From positions 1 through 24,639 of IMG/VR virus record IMGVR_UViG_3300023257_000614: 24,639 bases of DNA; one strand, given 5' to 3'. The first letter of the stretch is position 1. Each line of letters begins with the position of its first letter. This document shows, in pieces, positions 2,889-20,857 of the stretch. This DNA is from a virus. The notes beneath the pieces were generated by a model that saw nothing but the letters and a program-made list of their open reading frames with translations, ran no database searches and had not been told where the DNA came from. The position numbers and the translations under genes are program-made.

Positions 2889-4900
2889 TGGCTTCAGATA
2901 AAGACGTTATTAAGGACTGGGAAGAGGCATATAATGAGTCTTTAACGAATTGGGCTGAGTATTACGACGAAGCGTACACGGATTTAAAATACTATGTCGG
3001 CGATCAATGGAGTGAAAGCGACAAGAAGTATTTGAAAGGTGAGTCTCGCAACGCTTTGGTCTTTAATAAGATACGCCGTATCATAAAAATGATAACAGGC
3101 TACCAGCGCAAGAATAGGCTGAGCAGCATCATAGAACCCCAAGAAGGCAACGACCAAAACACAGCAGACATCTTCAGTGACCTTCTACTCTGGGTAATGA
3201 ATAACACGCACGGTTACGAGATTATCAGCAGTGCTTTTGAAGGAGCGTGTATTACAGGCGCTAACCTTTTATCAATATATATGTCTTATGATGATGACCG
3301 CGTAAACGGTGACATAAAGATTGTCAAAGAGCCTTTCAACGCTTTCATGCTAGACCCATATTTTACTCAGGCTGATCTCAGCGATTGTCGTTATCTATTG
3401 CGACGGCGTTACGTATCTAAAGACGACGCCAAGGGTCTTCTACCTGGAAAGAACAATGACATTGACAAATTGAAATCTAATAACGGCAACGATGGTCGTT
3501 TTACATACATGCCATACTCAAGAAAAGATAGTGCTGATCTTTTTGCTTACGATGAATACTGGAAGCGTGTTTCTAAGAAGCGCAAACTTTTGGTGGACAG
3601 GTCTACTGGTGAGACGCGTCTATGGGAAGGAGGAGCCTCGCAGCTTTCAGAGTTTAAGGGGCAATTCCCCTGGGTAGACATTATGACGGTCTACGAGAAG
3701 AGTGTTGAGCTTAATGTTATTCTCAATGGCGAGTTAATGTACTCTGGGTCCGATCCTTTTGGACTGGGTGACTATCCTTTTGTTCCTGTATTGGGATTCT
3801 ACGAGTCTCAGTACGATGATTATTCTTATAAGCTTCAGGGAGTTGTGCGTTGCATGCGTGATCCACAAACTGAGTTTAACAAACGTCGATCTAAAATGAT
3901 CGATATTCTCGATTCCCAAGTAAATAGTGGGTGGATATATAAAGAAGGTACGCTACGAAATCCATTAGATGTTTACAAGACTGGTCAAGGCGTTTCACTT
4001 GTAAGAACGCAAGATTCACAACCTGGAGATTTGGAGCGTATTCCTCCAGCAGAGTCCTCACAGTCTCTGTTTGCGTTATCTGAAGAGCTCAACCGAGACA
4101 TCATGGAGATACCAGGAGCTAATGAAGAGCTTTTGGGTGTTGCTGATGCTGGTAACACACAGATGTCCGGAGTGTTGGCGAAAGTACGTTCTGCAAATGG
4201 TCTTACTACCTTGCAGGATCTTTTTGATAATTTATCTTTTGCTCAGAAATTACTAGGGAACAAGATTGTTAAACTTATCCAGGCGAATTTTACGCCGGAG
4301 AAAGTTGAAAGGATTACGCAGAAGCAACCAACTCCCGAATTTTATCAGAAAGATTTTGGGAAGTATGATTGCGTAACTGTTGAAGGAATGCTTACAGATA
4401 CTCAAAGAGCGATGCATTATGCACAGTTGATTCAGGCTAAGTCTGTCGGTATCAATATTCCTGACAGTGCTATAATTAAGGCACTTCCGATACAAAATAA
4501 AGCAGAACTCATGGACGCGTTCGAGCAAGAACAGCAGGCAGCGCAGCAGCAGCAAGCTAAGATCGCCGAACAGGAAGAACTTCAGATGAAGCTTGCGAGC
4601 GCTGAGGTAATAAGCAAGTTATCTCTCAGCAAAGAAAGGCAAGCAAGGGCAAAAGCTGACATAGGATTGTTAATTGAACGTACCTCTGAAGCTTCTCAAA
4701 ATAACTCTCTTGCAGTTCTAAACCAGGTGAAGGCGATGTCTGAGATTTCAGGCATGGAACAGGACAGAATAATGAATGCTCTACAATTTATTATGGCATT
4801 ACAGGACAAGTCAGAACAGGAAGACAAAGAAAGAGAAGCTATAAGTAGCATTGAAGCTAGTATTGCTCCAAGTGAATTACAACAAAAAATGGGCATGTAG
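2888..4900 (+). CDS. Portal protein, P22-like
   Basis: The 670-residue protein follows terL and fits the P22 gp1 portal family (about 700 residues). The N-terminus has the usual DWEEAYNES...LKYYVGDQW segment followed by RNALVFNKIRRIIKMITGYQRKN, which is very typical of this family. The core holds DPFGLGDYPFVPV and the wing region around 320-340 (VVRCMRDPQTEFNKRRSKMID). The last 150 residues are Gln/Glu/Ala-rich and helical (from about 540), which resembles the coiled barrel of P22-type portals. Twelve copies would form the DNA gateway at one capsid vertex, docking TerL during packaging and the connector/tail afterwards. GTG at 2888 was chosen because AAGAGGT lies 7 bases upstream. Confidence 0.93.
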   Translation: MASDKDVIKDWEEAYNESLTNWAEYYDEAYTDLKYYVGDQWSESDKKYLKGESRNALVFNKIRRIIKMITGYQRKNRLSSIIEPQEGNDQNTADIFSDLLLWVMNNTHGYEIISSAFEGACITGANLLSIYMSYDDDRVNGDIKIVKEPFNAFMLDPYFTQADLSDCRYLLRRRYVSKDDAKGLLPGKNNDIDKLKSNNGNDGRFTYMPYSRKDSADLFAYDEYWKRVSKKRKLLVDRSTGETRLWEGGASQLSEFKGQFPWVDIMTVYEKSVELNVILNGELMYSGSDPFGLGDYPFVPVLGFYESQYDDYSYKLQGVVRCMRDPQTEFNKRRSKMIDILDSQVNSGWIYKEGTLRNPLDVYKTGQGVSLVRTQDSQPGDLERIPPAESSQSLFALSEELNRDIMEIPGANEELLGVADAGNTQMSGVLAKVRSANGLTTLQDLFDNLSFAQKLLGNKIVKLIQANFTPEKVERITQKQPTPEFYQKDFGKYDCVTVEGMLTDTQRAMHYAQLIQAKSVGINIPDSAIIKALPIQNKAELMDAFEQEQQAAQQQQAKIAEQEELQMKLASAEVISKLSLSKERQARAKADIGLLIERTSEASQNNSLAVLNQVKAMSEISGMEQDRIMNALQFIMALQDKSEQEDKEREAISSIEASIAPSELQQKMGM

Positions 4901-5604: not shown

Positions 5605-6276
5605 ATGGTAGAAGATCAAGATACGGGCGTAACCGAGCAATCGGAAGTTTCTGTCGCCGAGGAACAAACCGCGGGCGTTGATGCTCAGGTCGCCGCTGAG
5701 GAGGTTCAGACTCAAAGTGAAACACCAGAAGATAAAAACTGGTCTGCGTTTCGTGAGTCTGCTCGTGAGCAAAAGGAAGAGATCAAGTCGTTGAGGGCTG
5801 AGCTGGCTAGTTTTAGACAAACTCCAGCAAAAGTGCAACAACAGATGGATTCTTTCGAACAGGACATGGATGACATTCCAACCAAGGCTGATGTAGCTAA
5901 CTACATAGCTCGAAAAGAAAAAATTCTCGAGCAAAAAATGGCAGAGATGTCGGTTATGTCAAAACACCCTGATGCTCATGGGATAATTGAAAAGTATGGT
6001 AAACAGCTACCTGATGCAGTAAAGCAAGCGATTGCCTCTGCTCCTAATCCTTGGGAAGCTGCGTATTTTGCTTGCAAGAACTCAGAGGCGCATTATAAAG
6101 ACAGTCTTACGGATGCACAGCATGGAAACGCTAAGAAAGCGGTAGAGAATGCTAAGAAACCAGGATCGGCTAGTGCCGTTGGCAGTAGTGGGGCTTTGAG
6201 TAAAGCAAGCTTGTATGAGAGCATGAGCGACGCGGAGATAGTGGCGATTTCTAATAAATATAAGATGGGGGGATAA
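5605..6276 (+). CDS. Capsid scaffolding protein
   Basis: A 223-residue, highly charged protein directly upstream of the major capsid gene, the standard place for a scaffold. The N-terminus (1-45) is acidic and low-complexity. Residues about 50-120 are helical or coiled coil (SAREQKEEIKSLRAELASF, then IARKEKILEQKMAEM). A more structured segment follows (HPDAHGIIEKYGKQLPDAVKQAI, PWEAAYFACKN), then a Ser/Ala/Gly linker and a C-terminal helix with SMSDAEIVAISNKYKMGG, suitable for coat binding. It would guide prohead assembly and then leave or be cleaved. No protease motif is visible. AAAAGGAG lies just before the ATG. Confidence 0.83.
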   Translation: MVEDQDTGVTEQSEVSVAEEQTAGVDAQVAAEEVQTQSETPEDKNWSAFRESAREQKEEIKSLRAELASFRQTPAKVQQQMDSFEQDMDDIPTKADVANYIARKEKILEQKMAEMSVMSKHPDAHGIIEKYGKQLPDAVKQAIASAPNPWEAAYFACKNSEAHYKDSLTDAQHGNAKKAVENAKKPGSASAVGSSGALSKASLYESMSDAEIVAISNKYKMGG

Positions 6277-6331
6277 CCCTCCAGTTTCTTTCTGTATTCG
6301 GTAGCCATAACGAAACTCAACGGAGATACGG

Positions 6332-7272: not shown

Positions 7273-7908
7273 ATGACTGCAAGAATTAAGAAGTTTAAAC
7301 TTACCTCTGGTGGAGCTGCTTATACTTTAAACGTAGGCTTTGTACCTGATGAAATTGAAGTATGGAACTACACTCAGTGGGCCGTAGACACTAAAACAGC
7401 AAAGAGTTACTGGCACCGTGGTATGACTACTGCATATGCCCTTAACGAGCTTTGCGAAGACACAAGCACCAACCATACAGCTTCTACATCGAATGGCTTT
7501 ACAGTGCTTGAAACGACTTCTATTGTACCTAGCAACCAGAGCATTAGCGCTGTAACAGCTGCTAATCCTCCTGTTGTAACAGTAGGAGCCACAGCGACTT
7601 ACACTACTGGTGATGTTGTTGGTATCCATGACGTGACTGGGATGACACAGATTAATGAAAATCATTACAAAATCACAGTTATCAATAGCACAACCTTTTC
7701 TCTACAAGACATGAACGGTGATGACATCGACGGCTCAGCTTACACAGCTTGGTCAGCAGGTGGAAAAGTCGTAAACGTCTCAGAGAAAGTGGATAACAGC
7801 GGTACCTTTAGAGTTACTCTTGGTACTGATGTAGTTGGCGCTGACTCCGATCTCTTATTCGTGACTTGTACTCAAGCAGATTACGAGGATCTCGGAGACA
7901 TCGGTTAA
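7273..7908 (+). CDS. Decoration-like virion protein with FCCH-type beta domain
   Basis: The 211-residue protein follows the coat gene after a perfect AAGGAGGT SD and precedes the capsid-operon terminator, the usual place for a decoration or minor head protein. Residues about 1-80 form a first module (KFKLTSGGAAYTLNVGFVPDEIEVWNYTQW). Residues about 90-172 match a small beta domain often labelled E1-FCCH-like in phage proteins: SISAVTAANPPVVTV, YTTGDVVGI, VTGMTQIN, YKITVINSTTFSLQD, then SAYTAWSAGG. The end (NSGTFRVTLGTDVVGADSDLLFVTC) is again beta-like. The same beta domain recurs in the gene at 21194. Binding to the capsid surface is inferred from context. Confidence 0.75.
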   Translation: MTARIKKFKLTSGGAAYTLNVGFVPDEIEVWNYTQWAVDTKTAKSYWHRGMTTAYALNELCEDTSTNHTASTSNGFTVLETTSIVPSNQSISAVTAANPPVVTVGATATYTTGDVVGIHDVTGMTQINENHYKITVINSTTFSLQDMNGDDIDGSAYTAWSAGGKVVNVSEKVDNSGTFRVTLGTDVVGADSDLLFVTCTQADYEDLGDIG

Positions 7909-14155: not shown

Positions 14156-17100
14156 ATGGCTATTTTTGAAGAACCGCAATCTCGAGAACACCCAGCTGAA
14201 AAATATATAAGTACGGCACTTGAAGGTATTTTGGGGTTTGCTCAACAGAAACAACAGCAAAAGCAGGCGCGGGGGATTGCGCCAATGCTTGTAAAAATGG
14301 GGCTTGTCGAGACAGAAGAAGAAGGGATGGCTTTGGCTCAACAGTCTCCAGAGATCCAAAAAGTTTTAGTAGCAGGGGCGATGAAACAGATAGGGAAGGC
14401 CCCTGTTTTATCTCCTTTTGAGAAAAAAATGCAAGAGGGCATGGCCGAGAACGCCATGACTATGTATAAGTCTTTACCAAAGATACAGGCTCAAAAAGGT
14501 ACTCTTAATCGCATACTTTCCCTAAACGAAAAAATGGGAGGCATTCCTGGTTACGCAAAATCTTTTGTTGGGTCAAGAGACGCTACGGAACTTAACGCAC
14601 TTGGCTTAGCTGCTCTTGAACCCGTGCTAAAGGTTTTTAACCCTGCTGGTGTTTTGCCTCAAAGCAAGATTGAAATGATTAAGGATAAATTTGCTCCCAA
14701 GGCATCGGACAGGAGATCGGTAGTCAAAGCTAAGGTTGATGCTATTAAGCGCTTTACAGACATGGCTGAAGAACAGGCCCGTAATGCTTTTTCCTTAATG
14801 AAGACAGGGAAAATAACACCAGAAGAATTTGATGAAGGGTTAAAGAGCAATTTGTCTCTAATAGATCAAGTCCTAGAAGAACCAGCATCGTGGGAAGGAG
14901 AAGAGCAAAAAAAAAAAGAGGAAGAAGTAGAAGAGCCTTTAAAAGAGAAAGAGGCAGAGATGGCTATTCCGCCGGGTACTGGAATTGCTGAAGAGGCAAT
15001 AGGCGAGGAGCTCATGGCTCCGGCAAAAGAAGAAGTCGAAAAAGAGGCAAAAGGTTTTTGGGACAAGTTCTCAGATTTCACTAAAGGGGCGGCGGAGCTA
15101 GAGGCTGTCTCTGAAGAGTTCGAAAGAGCGGCAGAGAGCGGCGTTGAAAGAGAAACTGGTATAGGACTTCGAGCTGCTCCAAAAGCTGTTGGTGCTATGG
15201 TTGACTTTGGCAACCTTATATCTGATCTAGTTATAGGAAAAAAAATTCCGATAGAAAAGATGACAGAGGAGTCCTTTGGCAAGGCCATGTCTTTTCAAGA
15301 TCTTGGAGAAGAATTTTTTGATTATATTACCGGGAAAGAATATGTCCCGGATCATGCTATTGAAAGAATTTTTGAAAAAAGTATTCAAGCTGGTGGAGAA
15401 ATGGCATTAATCCCAGGGGGAGCCAAAGCTGATCTATTTGGAAAAGGATGGTTAAGTGGTCTCTTATCGCAATCGGCGAAAGAATCGGGTCTCGACGAAG
15501 GAAGTCAAGTCATGGCTTCTTTGCTTCCATTTTTGGGCGACTTTAAAGATCTTGCAAAAGGCGGAATAGACTTAATGAAGGGGGCATATGAGTTAGCTAA
15601 AAATCCTAAAAAATTAGAAGGAATGCTTAAAGACTTTTCTTCATATATTAGAGGAAAAAGTCTTAAGCCTTTGGCAGTAGCGACTAAGGCACAACGAAAG
15701 ATAAAACCAGAACAAGTTATTCCGTCTAGGGCTAAAGAGCTGATGGAGGCAAAAGATGTCTCAAAGGTGGCAAAGAAACCGCTTAGCGAACTTTTTGACA
15801 ATGAGCAGGTTTTGTCTATGGAAACACGCATGGCACAATTGCCTGCGACGAAAGAGATTTACAAGCCATTATTTGAGGAGATGACACAAAAATATGTTAA
15901 AGACTATGCCAAGATTTTAGGGGAAGTCTCTAGGACGGACCCAGAAAAAGCGTTTAAATTAATTACTGATGCAACCTCTAAAAAAGAGATTAAAGATTTA
16001 TTTAAAGAGTCGCTATACAAAGAGCGGGCGCTCGCTGACGAAAGTATAGGCAAGGGATTTGACTTGCTGAGGAAATATCGACCTAAAGGTGAGCGGGTAA
16101 GCTGGAAAGACACGAAAGAGCTTATAAAGTCTGTCGATGAAAGTATTGATCATTTACATAAAGGCGGCCTTATTTCAAAAGATTCTGAGCCATTAAAATA
16201 TTTGGAATCGTTCAAGGCTAGGCTTTTGAAGGCTCCTCCTGAGACAGCGGGAGAAATAAAAAAACTAAAGGAAGAAATTGCAGCAATTGAAAAAACAATT
16301 GGAACTACAAGTGTCGTTTCAAAGAAAGAGCTTGCTCCTCGTTTAAAGAAAATTGAAAAATTATCAAAGTCTGGAGCTTTAGTGGAGGAAGTTGAGCAAG
16401 GGTTTCGAAAAATAAATGCAGCGTTAAATTATGGCAAGCCTTTTCAGTATAAAGATATTCCTCGTCTTGATTTGAAGACTAAAATCAAAAAGGCTCTCGA
16501 GAATTATGGGAAGACAAAAAATCCTAAATACTACAAGCAATTTGTTAAGATGAATGAGGTTTATTCGAATTACAAGGACACCCTGAAGTCGGACATCGTA
16601 TTTAATACGCTATCTGGAAAGCGTCCTGATGCAATATACGGGTTATTGGACAATCCGAGTACCATTAAAGACTTTAAGGCAATAATTGCGTCAGGAGATC
16701 TTGAGTTAAATTATCTTGGTAATATGGTTATTACAAGTAAAATCAATGACATTTTATATCCTAAGCTATTTTCAGAGGGGGCGCAGATGAAGGAATCCAC
16801 CAAGCGCTTTACTCAATTAACATCTATGGAGAAAGATAAGTTGGCGGCCCTGATGGGTCGTGATGCATATGATGGTCTGAAGAAGCTACAAGGTGAAATT
16901 GCAACAAACCAGAAAAAACTTAATGCTTACTTAAATACTAGTAAAACTGCTGTGACGTTAACCTCTGATGCAAAAGAGTTTATGAGAATTTCAGGACTAT
17001 TAGACATGTTGTCAGGGAATTTTAAAAAGGGAACAAAGAAATTATTCTATTCAAATTATGAATCAATTTTAGGGGATTTGTATACAGATCAACATTTTCA

Positions 17101-17260
17101 GAAAATGTTATTAGATATCGTGCAAGAGAGTAAAAAAACAAAGCCAACTGTGAGCCCACTAAACAAAGTCGCTTCTTATGTGAAGAAAAAGCTTAAGAAG
17201 TATGATGCGACCTTTAAATCAATTGTGCCTGTGTCGAAGGTTTCTGAAGACGAAGATTAA
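14156..17260 (+). CDS. Very large internal virion (DNA ejection) protein
   Basis: 1034 residues and mostly helical. I see no recognisable lytic transglycosylase or peptidase motif. Residues 30-150 hold a repeated short helical piece (KMGLVETEEEGMALAQQSPEIQKVL) and MQEGMAENAMTMYKSL. An acidic, low-complexity segment with EEQKKKEEEVEEPLKEKEAEM lies near 245-265. The middle (about 330-480) has amphipathic stretches with Gly/Ala. Later parts are long Lys/Glu helices (residues about 690-730 with EIKKLKEEIAAIEKTIG). Place, size and neighbours fit the long ejection proteins of short-tailed phages. The stop is immediately followed by the structured RNA element on the opposite strand. Confidence 0.7.
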   Translation: MAIFEEPQSREHPAEKYISTALEGILGFAQQKQQQKQARGIAPMLVKMGLVETEEEGMALAQQSPEIQKVLVAGAMKQIGKAPVLSPFEKKMQEGMAENAMTMYKSLPKIQAQKGTLNRILSLNEKMGGIPGYAKSFVGSRDATELNALGLAALEPVLKVFNPAGVLPQSKIEMIKDKFAPKASDRRSVVKAKVDAIKRFTDMAEEQARNAFSLMKTGKITPEEFDEGLKSNLSLIDQVLEEPASWEGEEQKKKEEEVEEPLKEKEAEMAIPPGTGIAEEAIGEELMAPAKEEVEKEAKGFWDKFSDFTKGAAELEAVSEEFERAAESGVERETGIGLRAAPKAVGAMVDFGNLISDLVIGKKIPIEKMTEESFGKAMSFQDLGEEFFDYITGKEYVPDHAIERIFEKSIQAGGEMALIPGGAKADLFGKGWLSGLLSQSAKESGLDEGSQVMASLLPFLGDFKDLAKGGIDLMKGAYELAKNPKKLEGMLKDFSSYIRGKSLKPLAVATKAQRKIKPEQVIPSRAKELMEAKDVSKVAKKPLSELFDNEQVLSMETRMAQLPATKEIYKPLFEEMTQKYVKDYAKILGEVSRTDPEKAFKLITDATSKKEIKDLFKESLYKERALADESIGKGFDLLRKYRPKGERVSWKDTKELIKSVDESIDHLHKGGLISKDSEPLKYLESFKARLLKAPPETAGEIKKLKEEIAAIEKTIGTTSVVSKKELAPRLKKIEKLSKSGALVEEVEQGFRKINAALNYGKPFQYKDIPRLDLKTKIKKALENYGKTKNPKYYKQFVKMNEVYSNYKDTLKSDIVFNTLSGKRPDAIYGLLDNPSTIKDFKAIIASGDLELNYLGNMVITSKINDILYPKLFSEGAQMKESTKRFTQLTSMEKDKLAALMGRDAYDGLKKLQGEIATNQKKLNAYLNTSKTAVTLTSDAKEFMRISGLLDMLSGNFKKGTKKLFYSNYESILGDLYTDQHFQKMLLDIVQESKKTKPTVSPLNKVASYVKKKLKKYDATFKSIVPVSKVSEDED

Positions 17261-17327
17261 AAAGAAATGTGGAGCTCTTGTCTAACGATTGACAGATTCA
17301 GGGTATCCCCTTAACTCCACATCTCTA
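17255..17327 (-). ncRNA. Candidate structured small RNA, copy 1 (three-way junction)
   Basis: Read on the minus strand. Closing stem P1 is ATGTGGAG/CTCCACAT (17322-17315 with 17274-17267), eight perfect pairs. Hairpin P2 is AGGG-GATA-CCCT (17311-17300). Hairpin P3 is TCTGTC with GACA(A)GA (17296-17276) around an 8-nt loop AATCGTTA, with one bulged base. Junctions are TTA, GAA and G. A T-rich tract (TTCTTTTT) follows, complement of 17266-17259. A weak promoter lies exactly in register upstream. The element sits between the end of the ejection gene (plus) and the RHH gene (minus). It has no tRNA T-arm and no known riboswitch or ribozyme core that I recognise. The fold and sequence match copy 2 at 19319. 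Confidence 0.55.
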
Positions 17328-17356
17328 ACTTTAGTTGATTTTAGGAAAATATACAA
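17328..17356 (-). promoter_or_regulatory. Candidate promoter of structured RNA copy 1
   Basis: Minus strand: TTGTAT (17356-17351), a 17-base spacer, TAAAGT (17333-17328), then 7 bases to the first G of the closing stem. Each box is a poor match by itself. The exact copy of the spacing seen in copy 2 (17 bases, then 7 bases) is what makes it credible. Confidence 0.35.
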
Positions 17357-17370
17357 TACGAGAAGATATT

Positions 17371-17535
17371 TTAAGACTTTGGCTCAGCCTTCAAAATCGG
17401 ATCTTTGATCTTTAGCGTTTCTCTTATGCACCGCATCACAAAATCTTTCATCGAAATTCCAGCCTTTGCGGCGCTTATCTTTATACGCTTGTGGTCTTCT
17501 TCCACTATTTCTATGGTAAGTTTTTTTGTCAGCAT
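17371..17535 (-). CDS. Ribbon-helix-helix (CopG/HicB-type) small protein
   Basis: A 54-residue minus-strand frame. The ATG at 17535-17533 is preceded by GGAGGT six bases upstream. The protein has an N-terminal beta strand TKKLTIEIVEEDHKRIKI, then helix A, a turn AKAGISM, helix B KDFVMRCIRETLK and a short tail. That is the ribbon-helix-helix layout of CopG/ParD/HicB-type repressors and antitoxins. A promoter with a TATAAT box and an inverted repeat across it lies upstream, which suggests autoregulation. No toxin gene is beside it, so it is more likely a phage regulator or an orphan. Its short length makes it easy to miss in ORF surveys. Confidence 0.82.
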   Translation of the reverse strand: MLTKKLTIEIVEEDHKRIKISAAKAGISMKDFVMRCIRETLKIKDPILKAEPKS

Positions 17536-17555
17536 GTGTTTACCTCCAAGTTGTA

Positions 17556-17573
17556 TTTACCATTATACGTAAA
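17556..17573. promoter_or_regulatory. Operator-like inverted repeat at the RHH promoter
   Basis: TTTAC (17556-17560), eight bases, GTAAA (17569-17573) form an inverted repeat straddling the -10 box of the minus-strand promoter. ACGCGT, itself palindromic, lies next to it (17573-17578). This is a natural site for self-repression by the RHH protein; no binding is shown. Confidence 0.5.
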
Positions 17574-17590
17574 CGCGTACTTTATTACAA
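17562..17590 (-). promoter_or_regulatory. Sigma70-type promoter of the RHH gene
   Basis: Minus strand: TTGTAA (17590-17585), a 17-base spacer, TATAAT (17567-17562). The -10 is perfect and the -35 matches four of six. Transcription would start near 17555, about 20 bases before the ATG. Confidence 0.72.
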
Positions 17591-17639
17591 GTTTTTGTAG
17601 AAGAAAAAAACACCTAGCGCCTAAAGTAAATTTATATTT

Positions 17640-17656
17640 GGAGGTAGTGTGCCTCC
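17640..17656 (+). other. Hairpin in the tail fibre leader
   Basis: GGAGG (17640-17644) and CCTCC (17652-17656) form a short stem with loop TAGTGTG. The stem contains an SD-like GGAGG that is not the one used for the fibre ATG (GAAGG near 17668-17672). No clear promoter for the fibre gene is visible in this stretch, so the leader signals remain uncertain. Confidence 0.4.
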
Positions 17657-17678
17657 ATACAAAAAATGAAGGTTAGCC

Positions 17679-19295
17679 ATGCGCGCACCATTAAGTTACT
17701 TAGGAACTGGAGACGTTCCTGTGCTTACTATAACTACATCAGTACCAGACACTTCCACAGTAGGGAAGCTGGGCGAAATTATTGTAGATAAAACTAATAA
17801 AAATGCTTATATCCTCACCAGCGCTGATGGTGGTATATATACTTGGGAAAGCATTGAAGGCGGCGGAGGTCTCGACTTCCAAGAATCTGTCTTGGCACAA
17901 TTAGCATATGCAAGTTCTACAGCTACAGAAGGTTATCGCTACCTAGCCTCCGGGACTTCTGGTCTGTGGACTAAAGACTACATATACGAATATCAGTCTG
18001 GAGCATGGGAAGCAACAGCACCTTCTAATGGAATGATGACTTACAACGAAGATACTTCCAGCATTCTTGTCTATACCGGATCTGCTTGGGAAGGCGTAGG
18101 CGCTGCTATTCCAGACGCTTCTGAGACTGTTCAAGGTGTTGTCGAACTTGCTACGACCACCGAAGTTGTTGCTGGCTCTGACACAACACGCGCTGTCACA
18201 ACAGCTGGACTAACAGCAAAACTCGGCACACAAACTGCTAATGGTGTAATGCTTGGTGGTGGAGCTGCTGGGTTTAATTTGGGAGCAACTTCAGCGGGTA
18301 CCGCAGGTCAGCCGTTGATTTCTAGTGGTGCTGGTGTTGATCCTGATTGGGGGACTCTTAGTGTCGCTTATGGTGGCACGGGTGCAACAACACATACAAT
18401 TCATGGTGTGTTGATTGGGGCAACTGCTGGTGCAGTAGTTTCTTTAACGGCCGGAACAAGTGGTCAAGTCTTGCTCGGTTCTACTGGAGCAGACCCTGTC
18501 TTCGGAACAGTTGGAAGCACAGATAGTACTATCGCTTGGACACTTGGAGCAGGTACTCTTACAGCACAAGCTCGTGCTGCTTCTGCTACTGTTACAGGTG
18601 TCATCGAGATTGCGACTGACGCTGAAACGACAACGGCAACATCGACTAGCCTATGTATTACTCCTGCTAACCTAGAGGTTCGTCTGGGTACTCAGACCCA
18701 GCATGGTGTAATGCTTGGTGGTGGAGCTGCTGGAACTAACCTTAGTGTTGCTGCTGTTGGTACAAACGGACAAATTCTTTGCGGTTCTACTGGTGCGGCT
18801 CCTGTTATGGCAACTGTAGGACATACAGCCGGTACTTTAACCTCAACGCTAGGCGCTGGAACTCTTAATATTGATACCGCATCTACGATGATTCGTACTG
18901 CTGCAGTAACAATCTCTAATGCTCAACTACAAGCGTTAAATGCGACACCGATACAGCTTGTTGCAACTCCTGGCGCGAATAAGTACCTTGACTTCTTGGG
19001 GGCTATTATTGCCTTGGATTATGGTACAGCTACGATAGACGATTGTGCCGCTGATGGAGATTTACAGATTCGTTATGATGCGAGTACTGTGGTTTCACTA
19101 ACTGTCGAAGCGAATGATTTGGTAGACGCTGTAGCAGATGCTGCATCTACAGCTAAACCGTTGGCTACTGATGTTACGTTATTGGCTGATAAGAAGTTGG
19201 AACTTTACAACAACGGCGCTGAGTACACAGTTGTTGGTGGCGGAGATGGAGTTTTGAAAATCCTCATCAACTACCGCATACTAGACTTGAGCTAA
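17679..19295 (+). CDS. Tail fibre protein with repeat modules (first fibre)
   Basis: 538 residues. The N-terminus holds GKLGEIIVDKTNKNAYILTSADGGIYTWESIEGGG, a module (G..I.D.....Y.LT....W..V.GG) common at the start of phage appendage proteins and recurring at 21768. A trimeric fibre stalk follows. It includes two copies of a classic repeat (ETVQGVVELATTTEVVAGSDTT, then ATVTGVIEIATDAETTTATST), each followed by LGTQT-x2-GVMLGGGAAG with a 31-bp DNA repeat. The C-terminus (about 420-538) is a beta domain with DFLGAIIALDYGTATIDDCAADGDLQIRYDASTV, which resembles fibre tip domains. It should bind a host surface receptor. GAAGG lies before the ATG, and the gene lies between the two copies of the structured RNA. 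Confidence 0.85.
   Translation: MRAPLSYLGTGDVPVLTITTSVPDTSTVGKLGEIIVDKTNKNAYILTSADGGIYTWESIEGGGGLDFQESVLAQLAYASSTATEGYRYLASGTSGLWTKDYIYEYQSGAWEATAPSNGMMTYNEDTSSILVYTGSAWEGVGAAIPDASETVQGVVELATTTEVVAGSDTTRAVTTAGLTAKLGTQTANGVMLGGGAAGFNLGATSAGTAGQPLISSGAGVDPDWGTLSVAYGGTGATTHTIHGVLIGATAGAVVSLTAGTSGQVLLGSTGADPVFGTVGSTDSTIAWTLGAGTLTAQARAASATVTGVIEIATDAETTTATSTSLCITPANLEVRLGTQTQHGVMLGGGAAGTNLSVAAVGTNGQILCGSTGAAPVMATVGHTAGTLTSTLGAGTLNIDTASTMIRTAAVTISNAQLQALNATPIQLVATPGANKYLDFLGAIIALDYGTATIDDCAADGDLQIRYDASTVVSLTVEANDLVDAVADAASTAKPLATDVTLLADKKLELYNNGAEYTVVGGGDGVLKILINYRILDLS
18241..18271 (+). repeat. 31-bp direct repeat in the tail fibre, copy 1
   Basis: This 31-bp stretch is identical to 18703-18733 (462 bases downstream). 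Both encode NGVMLGGGAAG or HGVMLGGGAAG of the stalk repeat. Identity at the DNA level, including third codon positions, points to recent duplication or gene conversion within the fibre gene. Confidence 0.8.
18703..18733 (+). repeat. 31-bp direct repeat in the tail fibre, copy 2
   Basis: Second copy of the repeat at 18241-18271. The bases just outside differ, so the identity is limited to the GVMLGGGAAG part of the stalk repeat. Confidence 0.8.
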
Positions 19296-19315
19296 GCTTA
19301 AGTTTCTGATATAAT
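19287..19315 (+). promoter_or_regulatory. Strong promoter of structured RNA copy 2 and P63C gene
   Basis: TTGAGC (19287-19292), a 17-base spacer, TATAAT (19310-19315), with TG just before the -10 (extended). The -35 overlaps the end of the fibre gene. Transcription would start near 19321-19323, exactly at the 5' strand of the RNA's closing stem. Confidence 0.82.
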
Positions 19316-19318
19316 ATA

Positions 19319-19386
19319 AGCCGTAGGTCAGGGAGATATCCCGAGTCTCGACAGTGAGTAGTTGAGAGCCTACAGCTTTTCTTTAA
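19319..19386 (+). ncRNA. Candidate structured small RNA or leader, copy 2 (three-way junction)
   Basis: Closing stem P1 is GTAGG/CCTAC (19323-19327 with 19369-19373), extended by AGC/GCT across one mismatch. Hairpin P2 is GGGA-GATA-TCCC (19331-19342). Hairpin P3 is TCTCGAC/GTTGAGA (19346-19352 with 19361-19367) around an 8-nt loop AGTGAGTA. Junctions are TCA, GAG and G. TTTTCTTT follows (19377-19384), so a transcript from the promoter at 19287 could end as an RNA of about 65 nt, or continue as the 5' leader of the P63C gene. The same layout with mostly different stem bases is found in copy 1. Confidence 0.6.
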
Positions 19387-19409
19387 TCTCTAACTCAGGA
19401 GAAATTCTC

Positions 19410-20799: not shown

Positions 20800-20857
20800 A
20801 GGAAAGCCTTTTTGGCTCCTTTGGCTTCCTACGATTTATCGTGGGGGGCCTTTTTTT
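20798..20857 (+). terminator. Double hairpin with strong T-tract terminator
   Basis: The first hairpin is AAAGG-(AA)-AGCC with GGCT-CCTTT (20798-20822). The second pairs GGCTTCCTACGA (20823-20834) with TCGTGGGGGGCC (20839-20850), twelve pairs counting wobbles, loop TTTA, and is followed by seven T residues (20851-20857). This is the best intrinsic terminator in the window. The minus-strand gene at 20829 ends inside it. Confidence 0.85.

Follow-up and report, generated by a model that had tools for sequence, protein, structure and literature searches.

Gene layout around the two elements

The window, that is, the whole 24,639-base viral contig that was analyzed, encodes a P22-like portal, a terminase large subunit, and a major head protein, together with tail-fibre-like ORFs, a small ribbon-helix-helix gene, and a P63C-domain gene. 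A search of the 24,639-base contig for end repeats found none. Two copies of a structured element are present (Table 1), and each begins shortly past a stop codon on its own strand. Copy 1 follows the ribbon-helix-helix gene on the minus strand, and the last codons of the plus-strand 1034-aa ORF overlap the end of its U tract on the other strand. Copy 2 lies on the plus strand between a tail-fibre-like gene and the P63C gene. At 19390-19402, a weak hairpin can form between the P63C ribosome-binding site AGGAG and UCUCU shortly upstream of it.

Table 1. Coordinates of the two elements, promoters, and neighboring genes in the window.
Feature	Position	Strand	Details
Copy 1, three-way junction and U tract	17259..17324	-	U tract 17265-17259
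Copy 1 helices	closing 17323-17315/17274-17266; hairpin 1 17311-17300 (GATA loop); hairpin 2 17296-17276 (8-nt loop)	-	
Copy 2, three-way junction and U tract	19318..19384	+	U tract 19377-19384
Copy 2 helices	closing 19319-19327/19369-19377; hairpin 1 19331-19342 (GATA loop); hairpin 2 19346-19367 (8-nt loop)	+	
Promoter TTGAGC-17-TATAAT with TG extension	19287..19315	+	just upstream of copy 2
Likely ribbon-helix-helix promoter TTGTAA-17-TATAAT, 10/12	17562..17590	-	copy 1 would be at the 3' end of its transcript
Tail-fibre-like ORF, 538 aa	17679..19295	+	stop 23 nt ahead of copy 2
P63C-domain ORF, 287 aa	19410..20273	+	3' of copy 2; AGGAG at 19397-19401
Small ribbon-helix-helix ORF, 54 aa	17371..17535	-	stop about 47 nt ahead of copy 1, same strand
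1034-aa ORF	14156..17260	+	convergent with ribbon-helix-helix gene

Structure of the two copies

An earlier note, made from the sequence alone, had described the two copies as sharing one three-way junction, and folding confirmed this for minus 17324-17259 and plus 19318-19384. The minimum free energies are -21.3 kcal/mol for copy 1 and -23.6 kcal/mol for copy 2 (z-scores of -4.2 and -3.7, respectively), and none of 200 shuffled sequences was as stable as the native ones. The closing helix has nine positions that enclose both hairpins, with standard pairs at all nine in copy 1 and at eight in copy 2, where one C-A mismatch lies near the base. In copy 1, the closing helix extends outward to about 13 pairs. 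The second arm comprises six pairs and one bulged A in copy 1 and seven pairs in copy 2. The loops (GATA and the 8-nt AATCGTTA and AGTGAGTA) and the junctions (TTA/TCA, GAA/GAG, and G/G) read as the note had given them. Unpaired positions that are identical between copies include the U and A of the first junction, the GAUA loop, the GA of the second junction, the A, U, and UA of the 8-nt loop, and the single G preceding the closing helix. Overall, 13 of the 19 unpaired positions are identical, compared with 15 of the 37 paired ones, which is a weak excess (one-sided p = 0.04).

The copies can be aligned without gaps in the closing helix, and the match was tested in three ways. First, a covariance model was built from copy 2 alone and recovered copy 1 at 40.0 bits (E = 3.7e-9; the E-values are rough, given a short calibration). 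The next matches in the window were the reverse strand of copy 2 itself (17.7 bits) and, as the best unrelated place, a site at 11.8 bits. Over 499 kb of other DNA, the highest scores of this model were 22.4 bits (in coding sequence) and 17.5 bits, both in stretches that a pattern had preselected; outside these, the best was 16.3 bits. Second, a sequence-only model that lacks the structure missed copy 1 when searched against the window. Third, 9 of the 20 pairs are changed on both sides with pairing kept, as the note had seen in the differing stems, compared with zero to two in slid controls; standard pairs occupy 97% of the pair cells. Taken together, the match to the copy-2 model, the miss by the sequence-only model, and the compensatory pairs indicate real paralogues that are held together by structure. 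These results support a real two-copy structured element that is kept by compensatory change between the copies. A search for a third copy in the window found none.

Searches for homologues and known families

The search of Rfam that the note had called for returned no family at the gathering score, and a lax E-value gave only matches far below threshold. ARAGORN found no tRNA genes, in agreement with the view that these elements are not tRNAs, and the hammerhead core (CUGANGA) was absent by reading. Patterns of the exact core gave only weak matches in viral contigs and in one genome per GTDB species. The better-scoring ones that were inspected (L002, L022, L063, and L060) were rejected, as they lie in coding sequence and the complete fold is missing; that of L022 sits in a glutamyl-tRNA synthetase-like reading frame. 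These pattern-scan matches are chance matches in coding sequence.

The 1034-aa protein and the P63C protein, used as single baits, found no viral relative, and relatives were gathered instead with alignments of the major capsid and P63C proteins. A model built from both copies found no match in 30 related records, in 80 P63C loci, in nine other P63C phages, or in about 1,030 genomes of three phyla. The same search method recovers both copies in the window; a model built from only two copies has a limited reach in distance.

Related phages at the same locus

Two relatives, G004 and G005, have major capsid proteins with 57 and 70% identity to that of the window, respectively. The G004 tail-fibre homologue is similar through its last residue, and an ordinary terminator comes directly after the gene (TAGCCCTC-TTAAT-GAGGGC-TTTTTTA). 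The G005 tail-fibre gene ends at 3735 and matches that of the window in its N-terminal part; a G-rich hairpin with T6 is present at 3715-3686. After this hairpin, G005 has ORFs of 102 and 191 aa that by reading resemble the 98- and 179-aa ORFs of the window, and it lacks a P63C gene where the window carries one. Given that G005 continues straight to the 102- and 191-aa ORFs, the P63C gene looks like an insertion in the window.

The relatives also have ribbon-helix-helix genes on the opposite strand between the structural operon and the tail fibre, which puts copy 1, too, at the terminus of an accessory island on the antisense strand. A ribbon-helix-helix gene transcribed divergently from the tail-fibre gene is found in the window (17371-17535), L025 (6640-6795), and L023 (about 7440-7590). 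The neighbors of this recurring gene differ (HNH-like and ParB-like), as in an accessory-gene island at one fixed place. In the two closest P63C homologues, a small ribbon-helix-helix gene lies directly upstream (L069, about 2820-2985; L070, about 1560-1715). This arrangement suggests that the ribbon-helix-helix and P63C genes may form a two-gene module, the members of which flank the tail-fibre gene in the window.

The repeats ATGCTTGC/GCAAGCA precede P63C genes in many phages (L069-L148; also L026, L027, L029, L031, and L034). The 8-mer is present upstream of P63C in 24 of 69 de-duplicated loci, the control coding segments all lack it, and the corresponding counts for GCAAGCA are 31 and 3. 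These repeats look like a shared operator. The spacer of the P63C promoter in the window has GCTAAGCTTAAG in place of the repeat of the other loci.

Promoters

The earlier note had assigned each copy a promoter of its own, which holds for copy 2 and fails for copy 1. Of all extended -10 sites in the window, the promoter just upstream of copy 2 is the best match, and it is the only one among both strands of the 24.6 kb with a perfect -10, a TG extension, and at least 4/6 at the -35. From the usual start distance, its +1 probably falls at about 19322-19323, within the 5' arm of copy 2. The site claimed for copy 1 (TTGTAT-17-TAAAGT, 7/12) is not credible, and copy 1 RNA more likely comes from the ribbon-helix-helix promoter (17590-17562). 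The claim that exactly seven bases separate the -10 from the stem is true of copy 1 only if the stem is cut short, as its closing helix reaches about 13 pairs.

A proposed reading: branched terminators

The U tracts directly follow the stems (TTCTTTTT and TTTTCTTT). Each has T at seven of eight positions and is interrupted by a C, which bears out the T-rich tract that had been noticed after each copy; such 7/8-T tracts account for 0.28% of the 8-mers in the window. AATCT trails the U tract in both copies, and sequence similarity stops there. Among compact Y-shaped folds that are flush with a U tract and have a free energy of -23 kcal/mol or lower, only about 10 others were found in 1.29 Mb, and none has this geometry. 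Both copies thus have the stable stem, adjacent U tract, and upstream same-strand stop codon of intrinsic terminators, and neither is a single uninterrupted GC-rich hairpin, given the three-way junctions, the mismatch in copy 2, and the bulge in copy 1. A simple hairpin, TGGGGG-GATA-ACCCTCCA, with a T-rich tract is present at 6266-6283 between a scaffold-like ORF and the major capsid gene; it has the same GATA loop as the two copies and was not seen in the relatives.

The post-stop position, the U tract, and the ordinary terminators in the tail-fibre slot of two relatives lead us to read the two copies as paralogous Y-shaped (three-way-junction) intrinsic terminators, of which copy 2 is possibly conditional. 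We see about an even chance that this reading, in which termination itself is inferred, is correct. Copy 1 would form the 3' end of the minus-strand ribbon-helix-helix transcript, where the convergent structural operon is met, and copy 2 would stop the tail-fibre transcript. Copy 2 may also overlap the start of the P63C transcript and act as a conditional terminator. RNA from the tail-fibre gene would form the full closing helix of copy 2, flush against the U tract. With a +1 in the 5' arm, native P63C transcripts (5' end at about 19322-19323) would lose the outermost pairs and keep a gap of three to four unpaired bases ahead of the U tract. Consistent with this, truncation at 19323 gives -20.8 kcal/mol, compared with -24.5 kcal/mol for the full structure, and a shorter closing helix that is off the U tract. 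The shortened RNA from the P63C promoter would terminate less, such that the P63C gene is reached. The suggestion that copy 2 is a leader regulator is compatible with a terminator that doubles as an attenuator.

Several observations count against terminators. The unpaired bases are kept more than the paired ones, which a plain terminator does not need, and termination alone does not explain the conservation of the junction and loop bases. The 59-nt stem is long, the U tracts are interrupted by C, and copy 2 has a mismatch near its base. In addition, one would not expect a good promoter directly upstream of a terminator, as is seen at copy 2, unless the conditional model is true.

Alternative explanations

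It is possible, if well short of probable, that the two copies represent a new class of three-way-junction cis-regulatory RNA with a sequence-specific core. Such an RNA may bind a phage factor or RNA polymerase and switch termination at accessory-gene boundaries according to where transcription originates.

The earlier note had favored a pair of phage small RNAs or leader regulators. As small RNAs, the two copies would be about 55-70 nt long, and their conserved loop bases would pair with targets or bind a chaperone. Copy 2 would then run from its own promoter to the U tract, and the ribbon-helix-helix mRNA would release copy 1 from its 3' end. The strong promoter just ahead of copy 2, the U tract at its end, and loops and junctions that are conserved more than the stems fit this idea. 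However, copy 1 has no credible promoter of its own (best 7/12), the usual start point lands within the 5' arm of copy 2, the hairpin loops match only in part, and neither a target nor a homologue was found. We therefore consider small RNAs unlikely, and the placement of the copies fits intrinsic terminators better than free small RNAs.

A cis element that binds a protein or ligand, with the junction (G-TYA / GAR-TCT / AGAG-C) and the GATA loop as the binding site, appears decidedly unlikely. The binder would perhaps be a phage protein regulating both the ribbon-helix-helix gene and the P63C gene. The nine two-sided stem changes point in this direction, as do the identical GATA, first-junction U/A, second-junction GA, and single G, and copy 2 lies within the P63C leader. 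In contrast, copy 1 is 3' of its own gene, which is not where a leader regulator acts, and neither the nine other P63C phages nor the 80 P63C loci gave a match.

We regard as very improbable a factor-independent antiterminator like HK022 put, which would bind RNA polymerase and carry it past terminators such as 20823-20850. The copies are on opposite strands, copy 2 at a promoter and copy 1 about 235-240 nt from the ribbon-helix-helix promoter, a spacing that resembles HK022. However, put consists of two stem-loops lying side by side, has no closing helix, and does not require a U tract, and only the antisense of structural genes lies 3' of copy 1 on its strand.

A DNA-level element, in which inverted palindrome-rich sites around the tail-fibre gene serve recombination or cassette exchange, is hardly credible: the copies are oppositely oriented, flank the tail-fibre ORF, and both lie at accessory-gene boundaries, but they agree at only about half of their positions, which is too much divergence for a crossover core. 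The window has no evident recombinase gene, and the U tract belongs to one strand only. The divergence of the flanking copies also led us to reject site-specific inversion of the tail-fibre segment.

Significance and comparison with known systems

If the two copies terminate transcription, a branched stem would perform the job of an intrinsic terminator while being kept by compensatory change. A phage could then insert an accessory gene and its promoter inside an existing terminator without silencing the inserted gene, because RNA begun in the 5' arm could not build the full stem. Should the core prove to bind something, the element would be a new regulatory RNA. Under either reading, two copies in one genome with nine two-sided pair changes provide a good basis for a family model.

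Similar to intrinsic (rho-independent) terminators, the two copies have a stable stem flush with a U tract right after a stop codon, and they occupy the gene slot of the ordinary terminators in G004 and G005. They differ from these terminators in being branched, with a three-way junction of about 60 nt rather than a single hairpin, and in being present twice, with stems that covary and junction and loop bases that are conserved. A limited literature search found no branched intrinsic terminator of this form, which is not proof of absence.

Phage HK022 carries two related put RNAs of about 70 nt, with putL just past PL and putR about 270 nt past the PR start (PMC9378689). Each consists of two side-by-side stem-loops that form a V with an RNA triplex, and a closing helix and U tract are absent (PMC9378689). 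As with putL and putR, one phage here has two related RNA structures, the first sitting at a promoter and the second lying about 240-270 nt past a different promoter. In contrast to put, a closing helix surrounds both hairpins here, so the two are not simply adjacent stem-loops. The extended start-associated sequences (ESAS) of cluster K mycobacteriophages are 17-bp inverted repeats with a variable spacer, located directly upstream of the 13-bp start-associated sequence (PMC3203893). They are likewise repeated intergenic inverted-repeat elements of phages with arms that vary between copies, but ESAS is a simple repeat present in many copies, whereas the element described here is a three-way junction present in two.
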